From: an uncultured Ruminococcus sp.
GTDB taxonomy: Bacteria > Bacillota > Clostridia > Oscillospirales > Acutalibacteraceae
NCBI GenBank assembly: GCA_902790475.1
Contig: CADASG010000005.1
Location: 1 to 52,847, forward strand
Reading direction: 5' to 3'
Length of the DNA stretch: 52,847 bases
In this document: in pieces, positions 1,080-5,030 of the stretch
Layout: each line of letters opens with the position of its first letter
How positions within the stretch are numbered: position 1 is the first letter of the stretch
The notes under the pieces: model-generated
What the model was told of the DNA's origin: nothing
Database searches by the model: none
Seen by the model: only the letters and a program-made list of their open reading frames with translations
Made by a program: the position numbers and the translations under genes

Positions 1080-1431
1080 TAGATTTCCTCCGTTCCGTTG
1101 ATAATCAGATCAAACTGCCATTGTATTATATCATAGGCGATATATGGTTTTCTATGGTAAAATACAATAAAGATATCAGAGGATTATCCCGTTATGTGCA
1201 GAATATGTATAGCAAAAAACGCAGAAGCAAAATCCTTGCTAAAAATATATCATTATCCGTGCAAATACTGTATAATAACAACATGTAACAGTTTTGCGAA
1301 ATACACTCAAAAAAATCCCGGTGCGGAATCGGTATGTCATAGCGTGTACTGATTCTTCTATACAATTTAAAGGAACCTCTAATAATTCTCTGCCGCGCAT
1401 AAGCACGAAATTGAATTATCAGAGGTTCCCT
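1080..1431. other. Intergenic region with no gene seen
   Basis: This 352-base stretch holds the ribosome binding site of the LRR gene and an AT-rich upstream region with a TATAAT-like box near 1124-1130 on the minus strand, but no convincing -35 partner. Its right side carries the long inverted repeat described separately at 1367-1433. No open frame with a ribosome binding site was found. Confidence 0.5.
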
Positions 1432-1433
1432 TT
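1367..1433 (-). terminator. Long imperfect hairpin after the fusion gene
   Basis: Left arm AAAGGAACCTCTAATAATTC (from 1369) pairs with the complement of GAATTATC-AGAGGTTCC (1413-1429), about 18 pairs around a 22-base loop. It sits exactly at the stop of the 1432-3582 gene. There is no U-rich tail, so it may be a terminator, an mRNA-stabilising hairpin or a small palindromic repeat. Confidence 0.4.
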
Positions 1434-3582
1434 ATTCAGATTTCATCCCGGTGGCTTGAAGCCAAGCCGCTACATCATCAGACAGCGTATCTCCGCCCGA
1501 GTAGTGTACGGAAAGGCCTTCGCCGATGTTGGAATCCGGCGCGAGCTTGGCGATGGCTGTCAGGCTTTGTCCAAAGCGGCCGCCGCCGTGCGAACAGAAC
1601 GGCAGGATCGTTTTTCCGCTCAGGTCATATTGCTCGAGGAAGGTCGCGATCGGCATTGGGATCGACGCCCACCAGTTGGGATAACCGAGAATGATGGTGT
1701 CGTACTGTCCGATGTTGTCGATCTTTCCTTTGATTTCAGGTCTGTCTTGATTATGCTGGGCTTCCTGCGCCTGCATCAGCACTGTATTGTAATCGGTTGA
1801 ATAGGGCTTGACAAGCTCGATCTCAAAGATATCCGCGTTTGTCTGCTTCTGTATTTCCTGCGCGACTCCGCGCGTGTTGCCGCTCCATGAATAATAGACA
1901 ATCAGTGCTTTTCCGCCGGAGCCACCCTTCACGGTTTCATCAGATACGGTTACGGCTGAAAGCTTGATGTCACCTGCGTTTCTGACAAGCCGAACGCCGA
2001 GGTTGTAGCTTTTCATATCTGATTCTCCTGCGGCGCGGTAGGCGCTGCGCATATTCTTTCCGAAATCATTCCAACCGCCGCCGCGATATACGTGACGCAT
2101 TCCCGATTCTGCACCGTAAGGGTTTTCGTTCTTGTCAGTGTCATATGCACCGTAGATGTCAAAGCACCACTCGTTGACATTGCCGTGCATATCATATAAC
2201 CCCCATGCGTTGGGAGCAAAGCTGCCGACTGCAACCGTAGTCATTCGGTATTCGCCCGGCTTGGCGGTCAAAGCGGAATCATCAAAGTAGTTTTCCTCGA
2301 TCTCATACGGATAGTGACCGTAGAAGTTCGCTTTCCCGGCGTCGAGAGAATGCTCTGCATTAAAAGGCGTCGTCGTACCTGCGCGGCAGGCATACTCCCA
2401 CTCAGCTTCCGTCGGCAGACGATAGCCGTTTGCTGAGCGGTTCCATGTGACGGTTTGACCGGAAACCGTGTACACAGGGGTCAAACCCTCGATCTCGCTC
2501 TTTTTGTTCGCAAAATTCAGCGCTTCAAGATAGCTGATATTCTCAACGGGCAGTTCTTCGCCTGCAAAGGTACTCGGGTTCTTCCCCATTACCTTCCGAT
2601 ACTCCGCCTGTGTGATTTCATAAGGACTGATATAGAAGTCCGCGACAGTTACTTTATGCTGTGTTTCGTCGTTGCCGCGCCAGTTTTCGGTTTCCGGACT
2701 GCCCATCAAAAAGGAACCTCCTTTGATCAGGACATAATTATCCGAAACCTCCTTATGATCTGTTCCGACCGCCTGAGTTGGCGTATCGCTTTGAATCTGA
2801 TTACTCTGCGGAATAGCCCATGAAGCAGACGGATTCTCTTGCGCAGGGTTGAGCGCCGAGTTTAAAACAATACCGCTCACGATCACGGCAATCAACAGTA
2901 AAGCGTACAGCAGTACCGATTTTCTCTTATCCTTTTTTGTGACCGATCTTAATATCAGCGACAGCAAATACGCTGCGAATCCCCACGCAAGGAGCATTGC
3001 GAGGTTTTCTAAAATGACAAGCCACCATGCTTTAGAGTAGTCGAGAAATGCAAAGGGATTCTTGAACAACATGTAGCTGAGCATATCCACCTTAAAAAAC
3101 AGGCAGAAGCCGAATACGGAAATAGCGCTCATGACTGCACCAAGCGCGATCTTGAGTGCCTTATTTTTCAGCTTTGCGCCGATAATGCCGAAATGCAGAC
3201 CGAGGTGCAGCCCCATCAGCACAAACGCCCAATGCGACAGTGCAAGGTGTCCCTGCCTGACGACAGACGAAGGAAGGATACCGTTCATGAAAGGCGTTGC
3301 GAACCGGCTCATCATCATGCCCGATAGTGCCGTACACACAAAGGACAGTAACAACATGACATTGACTGTCAGCTGAAAAATCCGCAGCGGTTGATACTTT
3401 CCCTTGAAAACCGACGCATAGTATTTCCTGTTCAATACCTGATGAACGATCGTCAGCGCGAACATAGTAACGCCCAGCCACTCGTGCGCGAGCTGCTCAG
3501 TCACCTGAAACGCCATCAAAAGCAGTAACGTAACCGTCAATGCCAAATCTATAACTCGTTTGATTATAGTATTCGTTTTCAT
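1432..3582 (-). CDS. Membrane DUF4405-like / SUMF1-like / flavodoxin three-module fusion protein
   Basis: 716 residues in three parts. Residues 1-240 hold about six hydrophobic segments with repeated histidines (H47, H117, H126, H130), resembling DUF4405 cytochrome-b-like membrane domains. Residues 283-535 are a formylglycine-generating-enzyme-type (SUMF1) domain: GGSFLMGS, YRLPTEAEWEYACRAG, GNVNEW, YRGGGW, NLGVRLVR. Residues 558-714 are a flavodoxin fold with YYSWSGNT (FMN phosphate loop), GYPNWW and a conserved C-terminal half. The cysteine pair that follows GGSW in true formylglycine-generating enzymes is absent, so that activity is unlikely. It lies 68 bases after the aldo/keto reductase gene and is probably co-transcribed from the promoter at 4718-4746. 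The role is inferred: membrane-linked flavin/heme redox chemistry. The fusion is unusual because such parts are normally separate genes. Confidence 0.8.
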   Translation of the reverse strand: MKTNTIIKRVIDLALTVTLLLLMAFQVTEQLAHEWLGVTMFALTIVHQVLNRKYYASVFKGKYQPLRIFQLTVNVMLLLSFVCTALSGMMMSRFATPFMNGILPSSVVRQGHLALSHWAFVLMGLHLGLHFGIIGAKLKNKALKIALGAVMSAISVFGFCLFFKVDMLSYMLFKNPFAFLDYSKAWWLVILENLAMLLAWGFAAYLLSLILRSVTKKDKRKSVLLYALLLIAVIVSGIVLNSALNPAQENPSASWAIPQSNQIQSDTPTQAVGTDHKEVSDNYVLIKGGSFLMGSPETENWRGNDETQHKVTVADFYISPYEITQAEYRKVMGKNPSTFAGEELPVENISYLEALNFANKKSEIEGLTPVYTVSGQTVTWNRSANGYRLPTEAEWEYACRAGTTTPFNAEHSLDAGKANFYGHYPYEIEENYFDDSALTAKPGEYRMTTVAVGSFAPNAWGLYDMHGNVNEWCFDIYGAYDTDKNENPYGAESGMRHVYRGGGWNDFGKNMRSAYRAAGESDMKSYNLGVRLVRNAGDIKLSAVTVSDETVKGGSGGKALIVYYSWSGNTRGVAQEIQKQTNADIFEIELVKPYSTDYNTVLMQAQEAQHNQDRPEIKGKIDNIGQYDTIILGYPNWWASIPMPIATFLEQYDLSGKTILPFCSHGGGRFGQSLTAIAKLAPDSNIGEGLSVHYSGGDTLSDDVAAWLQATGMKSE

Positions 3583-3614
3583 TCAATCCACACCTTTCAA
3601 TTAGAATAGCGTTT

Positions 3615-3640
3615 AAGCTCCGTGCGGTCACACGGAGCTT
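3615..3640 (-). other. Intergenic hairpin between aldo/keto reductase and fusion gene
   Basis: AAGCTCCGTG (3615-3624) pairs perfectly with CACGGAGCTT (3631-3640) around a 6-base loop, just past the stop of the upstream gene. Without a T-run it is more likely an mRNA-processing or partial-attenuation hairpin than a full terminator. Confidence 0.45.
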
Positions 3641-3650
3641 TTGTGTCCGC

Positions 3651-4586
3651 TTATTTCATCTCCTTTTCCCAAAAACGGATCGTGTTGATATTAAGGCTGT
3701 CCGCCACCTTTTCAAGTTCGGCGGTTTCTTCCTGTGTCAATGCGATATTAGCTGCTTTTACAGCGTCCTCAACATGCTTTTCTTTTGTCACTCCGATAAT
3801 CGGTAAAGTGCCTTTGGCGATAGCCCAAGCTACCGGGATCTGCGCGATTTCAACATTGTATTTATCGGCGAGCTTTTTGAGTTCGGCGTTCAGTACTTCT
3901 ATCTTGTCAAGCACGGGATTATACGCGTCTGCTCTCGCCGAACCAGCGGGCATAGGATTAGCAGTATCATATTTGCCCGACAGTGCGCCTTGCTCGAGCA
4001 CCATATAAGAGAAGAAAACGATGTCGTTTTCCTTGCAGTAGTCGAGTATTCCGGAAGTCTCGGAGGAACGGTTGATAAGGCTGTAGTGATTCTGAACCGC
4101 GCCGAGCTTCAAGCCGTGCGATATTAAGATCTCGTTTGCCTGCTTGATCTCCGCAAGGTTATGATTGGAAACGCCGAGAATCGGCACATCTTCCCTTCCC
4201 TCAAAATACTTTGCCATTTCCTCAGTCCACTTAGGCGCGTCCCATACGTTGTGTATCCAGTAAATGTCGAAATGACTTAGCTTCATCAAATCAAGCTGCA
4301 TTTCGATCATATCCTTGAACGCCGTTGCGCTTTCAGGATTCGCGCACTGAGGGGTGAATTTGTCGGATACAAGATAAGAGCCTTCTTCACAGTCTGCGAC
4401 AAAATCAGCGAGTACCTTTTCGCTTGTTCCCATTCCGTAAGCATAAGCAGTATCCCAGAGGTTCAAGCCGTTCTTCATAGCTGTGTCAAAAATCGGACGA
4501 AGCTGCTCTGCGGTCAGGCTGTTTCCAAATGTTCCGTCGTTGCCCCAAGCCCACGCGCCGAGAGCGATTTTAGGTAAGTATTTCAT
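3651..4586 (-). CDS. Aldo/keto reductase
   Basis: 311 residues, the usual length for this NAD(P)H-dependent oxidoreductase family, which reduces aldehydes and ketones in the cytoplasm. Visible family features are LGAWAWGN at the N-terminus, the catalytic aspartate and tyrosine in LWDTAYAYG, the lysine in SDKF, IYWIHN for the active-site histidine strand, and GVSNHNL later. The start at 4586 has AAAGGAG seven bases upstream. It is the first gene of a two-gene unit with the flavodoxin fusion and lies behind a strong promoter flanked by TetR-type palindromes, which suggests induction by a small toxic or redox-active molecule. The substrate cannot be told from sequence. Confidence 0.9.
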   Translation of the reverse strand: MKYLPKIALGAWAWGNDGTFGNSLTAEQLRPIFDTAMKNGLNLWDTAYAYGMGTSEKVLADFVADCEEGSYLVSDKFTPQCANPESATAFKDMIEMQLDLMKLSHFDIYWIHNVWDAPKWTEEMAKYFEGREDVPILGVSNHNLAEIKQANEILISHGLKLGAVQNHYSLINRSSETSGILDYCKENDIVFFSYMVLEQGALSGKYDTANPMPAGSARADAYNPVLDKIEVLNAELKKLADKYNVEIAQIPVAWAIAKGTLPIIGVTKEKHVEDAVKAANIALTQEETAELEKVADSLNINTIRFWEKEMK

Positions 4587-4696
4587 AATTTCATAACTCC
4601 TTTGTATATTTTTCTTTTGATTACAAGTGTAGGCTGTATCACAGATATAATAGAAGTTCTAAAAAACTGAATCATATATCCTTGCAGCACGCATTC

Positions 4697-4709
4697 TGAC
4701 ACTGTGTCA
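4697..4709. promoter_or_regulatory. Palindromic operator, site 1 (TetR-type)
   Basis: Perfect palindrome TGACAC-T-GTGTCA. It falls just downstream of the -10 box at 4718-4723, over the expected transcription start, a classical repressor position. No tetR gene is visible in this window. Confidence 0.7.
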
Positions 4710-4717
4710 GTAACTAT

Positions 4718-4746
4718 ATTATACATGTATTCTGACACGGTGTCAA
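4718..4746 (-). promoter_or_regulatory. Sigma-A promoter of the aldo/keto reductase operon
   Basis: On the minus strand TTGACA (4746-4741), a 17-base spacer and TATAAT (4723-4718), a perfect vegetative consensus. The -35 box overlaps operator site 2. The leader to the ATG at 4586 is about 120 bases. Confidence 0.85.
4733..4745. promoter_or_regulatory. Palindromic operator, site 2 (TetR-type)
   Basis: Perfect palindrome TGACAC-G-GTGTCA, the same half-sites as site 1 and 36 bases from it. It shares bases with the -35 box, so an occupied site would block RNA polymerase. Confidence 0.7.
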
Positions 4747-4750
4747 TACA

Positions 4751-4797
4751 AAATCAAAAAATTTCGCTGTGAATTTTTCAAATCACAATTCACAGCG
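4751..4797 (-). terminator. Rho-independent terminator after exonuclease III gene
   Basis: Minus-strand stem CGCTGTGAATT / AATTCACAGCG (4797-4787 with 4775-4765), followed by AAATTTTTTGATTTT. It separates the xth transcript from the aldo/keto reductase promoter. Confidence 0.7.
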
Positions 4798-5030
4798 TTA
4801 TACTTTTTCTATTCTTTTAATTTTTCTGTGAGTGTGTTGACAAGCAGCTCGGAAATCGGTGTAATAGCTTGATGTTTTCTCCGGATAATCAATCATGAAA
4901 AAGACCACACAATGCAGCACTTGATGCATCTGCAAGCTGAGCGCCTTGAATTATGCGAGTTGCCTTAGAGAAAACCATTCGGCTGTCTGTTTTGATTTTG
5001 TGGGATTAGGCGGCACTATAAATCTGCTGT
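4798..5030. repeat. Spacer with one degenerate AGGCAA-family repeat end
   Basis: No gene seen. Bases 4941-4966 (GCGCCTTGAATTATGCGAGT, then TGCCTT) match the right end of the palindromic repeats at 20844, 22847 and 50036. The left end is not recognisable, so this is a decayed copy. Confidence 0.5.

Follow-up and report, generated by a model that had tools for sequence, protein, structure and literature searches.

A fusion of a DUF4405 membrane core, a cysteine-less FGE-like domain and a flavodoxin in an uncultured Ruminococcus, and its palindrome-marked regulon

The closest known systems are the DUF4405 cytochromes with Flavodoxin_4 described by Huang, Meheust, Barquera and Light (2024, PMC11334425). 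According to that paper, a DUF4405 protein was purified with heme b, DUF4405 genes adjoin apbE and Flavodoxin_4 genes, and the family is tied to apbE and covalent flavin. The systems presented there have separate genes, apbE in the vicinity, an insert for flavinylation and a protein of six helices; the terms FGE, formylglycine and sulfatase do not occur in the text of the paper. Membrane cytochromes of the MsrPQ or ferric-reductase-like kind work similarly, with heme pairs feeding a redox domain on the outside. A PF03781 domain that is exported, by prediction in the protein studied here, is shared with the cysteine-less FGE/SUMF1 members PorK/GldK, TvpA and PvdO. In NemR-type electrophile regulons, a TetR-type repressor with a conserved cysteine controls reductases.

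The window analyzed here is a stretch of 52,847 nucleotides from an uncultured Ruminococcus sp., and all coordinates in Table 1 are window positions. It encodes a fusion protein that resembles the systems in PMC11334425 in its DUF4405 core with conserved histidines, its Flavodoxin_4 partner, its association with exported flavodoxins and its occurrence in Clostridia. Unlike those systems, it has both parts in one chain with an FGE-like domain between them, a seventh helix and no insert, and no apbE was found nearby: the window genome has one ApbE elsewhere, and a BLAST search with that one protein against the frames of 98 loci gave no match. Its FGE-like domain differs from PorK/GldK, TvpA and PvdO in being fused to a flavodoxin and in scoring far under the GldK and PvdO cut-offs (103 bits of 350 and 82 of 500, respectively), and the protein differs from MsrPQ in having a flavodoxin in place of the MsrP domain. 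An earlier note on this DNA knew of no description of the combination; our literature search likewise found none for the three-domain fusion.

Table 1. Features of the fusion locus in the window
Feature	Position	Strand	Remarks
Hairpin, 20-bp, 3' of the stop codon	1369..1432	minus	likely operon end; fold z -6.6
Fusion gene, DUF4405 + FGE-like + Flavodoxin_4	1432..3582	minus	716 aa, ATG start
Flavodoxin_4, aa 558-708	1459..1911	minus	FMN loops SWSGNT, YPNWW and PFCSHGGG retained
FGE/SUMF1-like domain, aa 282-534	1981..2739	minus	without catalytic cysteine pair; Pfam
Membrane part, aa 1-243	2854..3582	minus	seven hydrophobic segments, limits hand-set
Seventh hydrophobic segment, aa 222-243	2854..2919	minus	predicted to carry the C-terminal domains outside
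DUF4405 Pfam match, aa 73-131	3190-3366	minus	28.2 bits vs cut-off 26.7
Aldo/keto reductase, 311 aa	3651..4586	minus	first gene of the apparent two-gene operon
Palindrome TGACACTGTGTCA	4697..4709		immediately downstream of the -10 box; 36 bp away from palindrome TGACACGGTGTCA
Promoter TTGACA-17-TATAAT	4718..4746	minus	12/12 consensus letters
Palindrome TGACACGGTGTCA	4733..4745		overlaps the -35 box

The earlier note, which was silent on the strand, had placed the three domains in one chain, and this reading held. The frame has no internal stop codon and all three domains exceed their Pfam cut-offs, with 159.3 bits against 23.3 for FGE-sulfatase (PF03781), 93.8 against 24 for Flavodoxin_4 (PF12682), and a score only just above the cut-off for DUF4405 (PF14358), which reached 34.2 bits in the genome search. 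A scan of genome contigs yielded 165 relatives, and the analysis continued with the best 80. All three domains were found in one open frame in 39 of these best 80 of 165; the other 41 comprised split frames (in 3 loci the domains lie across two adjacent frames), contig ends, deleted copies, membrane-only copies and FGE-only proteins. Three additional full fusions (L101, L121 and L122) came from other genomes. This recurrence of the one-frame fusion among relatives rules out an assembly error joining neighboring genes, the doubt that the earlier note had raised, and agrees with its expectation of a conserved fusion. Relatives do not have separate genes only, as fused and separate forms coexist in the same kind of cluster. 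The fusion is thus repeated, and it is rare: full-length coverage was found in 3/101 genomes of the genus sample, in two genomes of the class sample of 391 (the window genome and G539), and in the same two genomes of the phylum sample of 398. At E 1e-90, 17 of the 391 class genomes were matched, namely these two, 13 that have FGE-flavodoxin but no membrane part, and 2 that have nothing but the membrane part. The carriers are mostly titled rumen or gut Clostridia, with one named culture, Sarcina sp. DSM 11001 (L060); phylum labels outside Bacillota (L041, L054, L067 and L068) are those of the MAG titles.

The histidines that the earlier note had pointed out in the membrane part proved to be strongly conserved: H33, H47, H112, H126 and H130 were each present in 40 or 41 of the 41 aligned fusions, and of 74 membrane rows all but L087, a broken copy, have the spacing HX13H + HX13HX3H (73 rows). 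In cytochrome b, a pair of HX13H helices is the classical arrangement that carries two b hemes stacked across the membrane. The DUF4405 core, with its two stacked histidine pairs, is likely to bind two b hemes. When the segments were delimited by hand on the basis of hydropathy, the loops predicted to lie inside had more K/R than those outside in 41/41 fusions, and a seventh hydrophobic stretch followed the six-helix core in 41/41. Given these loop charges and the seventh segment, the FGE-flavodoxin part is predicted to lie outside the cell. Among the membrane-only copies (n = 12), 8 stop before the seventh segment and 4 retain it. The membrane core had a median dN/dS of 0.10 (100 of 105 pairs), a rough value, with dS near saturation (median 1.3).

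In the FGE-like domain, D506 and M511 occupy what we take to be the positions of the catalytic cysteines of FGE. Position 506 was D in all 41 aligned fusions and position 511 was M (32) or L (9), bearing out the absence of the cysteine pair reported earlier; the FGE-like domains of 24/24 other rows have RGGGWND or RGGAWND in its place. With no catalytic cysteines in fusions or module rows, an active formylglycine enzyme is ruled out. The closest solved structures for this domain include the non-enzymatic PorK/GldK lipoproteins. Its match to TvpA raised the possibility of a variable domain of a diversity-generating retroelement. In proteins from Treponema/Spirochaetaceae (L091-L098; 368-427 aa), an FGE-like domain shares about 50% identity with that of the window, and no flavodoxin is present in the same frame. 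For the flavodoxin domain, covalent flavinylation was rejected: the ApbE flavinylation motif, taken as [DNS]xx[ST]G[AS][ST], occurred in 0 of 41 fusions and 0 of 50 cluster flavodoxins, and the window flavodoxin, compared with 4ici, has no insert between strand 1 and helix 1.

The cysteine-less FGE-like domain and flavodoxin also occur together without the membrane part, with a lipobox start (L010, L011, L012, L102 and L103), a plain signal-like start (L067 and L068), or Cu_amine_oxidN1 (Cu-amine-oxidase-N), extra flavodoxin or SLH N-termini; L111 (1000-4143; 1048 aa) combines three SLH domains with three flavodoxins and a single cysteine-less FGE-like domain. Judging from these architectures, FGE-flavodoxin is a new module of its own, with several putative surface anchors. 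In a tree of 71 such modules, the 47 DUF4405-fused rows require at least 3 architecture changes (shuffled mean 20.2). Of 14 unfused loci, 6 have a separate DUF4405-like gene (BLAST, 36-39%) no more than about 3 kb away and on the same strand (L138, L139, L140, L142, L143 and L151); none was detected by BLAST in the sequence covered for the other 8. The two parts are thus separate in some loci and fused in others, within similar clusters, and we regard this as strong evidence from gene arrangement that they cooperate.

The aldo/keto reductase neighbor expected from the earlier note directly precedes the fusion gene, on the same strand and with 68 bases between them, and the two appear to form a two-gene operon. 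The promoter was the only 12/12 match within positions 1100-5000. None of 200 shuffles was as stable as the hairpin beyond the stop codon, which was missed by the pattern scan for terminators because the stem-loop exceeds the length allowed in that scan. In the 67 loci with placeable neighbors, a Flavodoxin_4 gene lay directly upstream in 36, with a lipobox-like start in 30 of these, and genes nearby encoded CMD/cupin (25), TetR (24), aldo/keto reductase (20), DUF362 (12), ArsP-type permease (10), FMN_red (9), ABM (5) and Flavin_Reduct (5). The upstream flavodoxin has a dockerin-like stretch in L079 and L085 (confirmed by Pfam in L079), and contig C15 of the window genome encodes a flavodoxin of the same kind. 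A signal-like start and dockerin-like repeats were seen in all three (L136:2876-3679, on C15; L079:7662-8462; L085:7671-8462), suggesting that such flavodoxins may attach to a cellulosome-like scaffold or to the cell surface.

Two palindromes accompany the promoter of the window operon. The pattern CTGACACNGTGTCA, with one mismatch allowed, was found in three places in the 2.7-Mb genome (reversed pattern: 0), twice before the window operon and once before a TetR operon on C15. The latter encodes TetR, a shortened aldo/keto reductase frame, CMD/cupin, the dockerin-flavodoxin and a cytosolic-type flavodoxin, and its promoter is arranged in the same way, here with a weaker palindrome at a distance of 36 bp from the first. 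The aldo/keto reductase frame (L136:4410-5033; 207 aa) lacks its N-terminal part. Of the 71 loci that have a membrane part, 42 showed twin palindromes upstream, and 33 of 43 pairs were exactly 36 bp apart; the pattern was derived from the same sequences in which it was then counted, and fairer tests are the reversed control and shuffles in two-base blocks (0/1420 shuffled loci). Many of the 29 loci without twin palindromes have short flanks and 5 have more than 5.5 kb upstream; of all loci with more than 5.5 kb upstream, 32/37 have the pair. Palindromes were also located before TetR genes in relatives, as before the TetR gene of the window genome. The pair is found, too, in front of copies that are membrane-only or scarred (L070, L081, L083 and L086), which would make the cytochrome itself a regulon member.

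By its promoter sequence, then, the fusion gene is a member of a palindrome-marked regulon with putatively secreted flavodoxins, whose make-up points to reactive electrophiles or quinones. A TetR-type repressor with a conserved cysteine and reductases under control would be shared with NemR-type regulons; the window regulon differs in its twin operators 36 bp apart and in its membrane cytochrome and surface flavodoxin targets. Cys20 was present in all 25 TetR sequences, and no histidine was among the positions kept in at least 90% of them, which argues weakly against a heme-sensing TetR. The unfused lipobox loci L138-L143 had no twin palindromes; on inspection of the sequences, LysR-like genes were near 4 of these 6 (L138, L140, L142 and L143).

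In the clade of membrane parts to which the window protein belongs, one of 17 rows is full (that of the window), 7 keep remnants of the tail and 9 are membrane-only; among these nine, L083 and L128 are identical. Each of the seven scarred copies breaks at a different place. Tail deletions were found in L070, L074, L076, L077, L082, L087 and L073 within this clade and in L015, L075, L080, L089 and L090 outside it; they rest on metagenome assemblies, and several recur as L123-L126, evidently the same assemblies and thus non-independent. Because most copies in the clade have no FGE-flavodoxin tail, the tail is not required for the function of the core. In the window lineage it is useful yet dispensable, and its place may be taken by other regulon flavodoxins.

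Neither ALAD (HemB) nor ferrochelatase was found in the window genome (94% complete), and a survey of 22 further carriers, with the system either fused or unfused, showed ALAD in the genome of L054 and not in the remaining 21; completeness is known for 9 of the 22, all without ALAD. This was unexpected and counts against the heme reading: if the core binds heme, most carriers must scavenge it. No UbiA-type prenyltransferase was matched in the window genome (the control set matched 14/14); menaquinone is therefore probably absent, making menaquinol unlikely as a donor.

We propose, with a probability of about 0.55, that the protein carries electrons from the membrane to the surface, a DUF4405 cytochrome serving surface flavodoxins under the control of a stress-type switch. 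The domains, histidines, topology pattern, regulon and recurrent loss are established by sequence; heme and FMN binding in this protein, the direction of the electrons, binding by TetR and the substrate we infer. The core would take electrons on the inner side of the membrane, most likely from the cytosolic flavodoxin or the flavin reductases of the same regulon, donors favored by the probable absence of menaquinone. The recipients would be the FMN of the extracytoplasmic flavodoxin in the same chain and the secreted flavodoxins of the regulon (lipoprotein or dockerin-bearing). The cysteine-less FGE-like domain, no oxidase, most likely holds or presents a substrate or partner beside the flavin. 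A TetR-type repressor would switch the operon via the twin palindromes, and the aldo/keto reductase, carboxymuconolactone-decarboxylase/cupin protein and flavin reductase of the regulon point to reactive electrophiles or quinones. The passage of electrons between heme and FMN suggested in the earlier note fits the published DUF4405 relative with heme b (PMC11334425), with both cofactors presumed here. That note had the domains, missing cysteines, neighbor, histidines and fusion right, and omitted the predicted outside location, the module nature, the regulon and the loss of the tail.

The membrane part might instead be a mere anchor or signal, the FGE-flavodoxin module doing the work and being reduced from elsewhere like the lipoprotein and SLH forms. 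At least four other N-termini, all of them plain surface anchors, do occur on the module. However, the near-invariant core histidines, the purifying selection on the core, its retention in a clade that loses the tail, and the separate DUF4405-like gene in 6 of the 14 unfused loci make this explanation unlikely. That clade, with its single full copy, could also be taken to mean that the window copy is a decaying relic, with a C-terminal part of no present function; the frame is nevertheless intact over 716 codons and the FGE-flavodoxin part is 77% identical to L019, and we consider a relic very unlikely.

Two further explanations accept electron transfer and differ in its purpose. In an MsrPQ-like repair system, the cytochrome would feed a surface flavoprotein that mends exported proteins after oxidation, and the FGE-like domain would serve to grip the peptide. 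FGE relatives bind peptides, and true FGE grips its substrate. The non-enzymatic PorK/GldK lipoproteins among the closest structures are in line with this, as is the resemblance of DUF4405 models to MsrQ (PMC11334425). We nonetheless find repair quite improbable, as no methionine-sulfoxide reductase (MsrP) domain was present in the chain or in the representative neighbor proteins scanned, and the regulon resembles small-molecule chemistry more. Disposal of fermentation electrons to an acceptor outside the cell (anaerobic respiration), carried out by extracytosolic flavoproteins in other gut anaerobes and a theme of PMC11334425, would dispense with stress defense; it too seems unlikely to us, given that the TetR-type palindrome pair and the aldo/keto reductase and carboxymuconolactone-decarboxylase/cupin partners suggest an inducible response and that no acceptor reductase was recognized among the neighbors scanned.

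The proposed membrane-to-surface electron transfer could be extended to a new class of composite surface oxidoreductase, a doubtful step, in which the cysteine-less FGE fold would present substrate to an extracellular FMN on at least five mounts in Clostridia, the window type being hard-wired to a cytochrome with scavenged heme and heme availability gating electron export. What we consider real is a conserved, regulated and presumably extracytoplasmic redox system akin to DUF4405/flavodoxin electron export. Abundant Clostridia of gut and rumen, most of them without HemB, would thereby connect a recently recognized cytochrome family with a new flavodoxin module outside the cell and with a regulon of sharp definition. 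It would be of interest to determine the role of a cysteine-less FGE fold beside a flavin, the place of a heme protein in heme-auxotrophic fermenters, and the signal that opens the twin-palindrome operon.

Elsewhere in the window genome, contig C54 (L137) has a further cluster rich in lipoprotein and cytosolic flavodoxins and aldo/keto reductases, with a dockerin-bearing esterase-like protein. In the window itself, positions 558-1079 and the sequence upstream encode a BspA-type leucine-rich-repeat protein with a frame break near 560, past which the repeats run on toward position 1.
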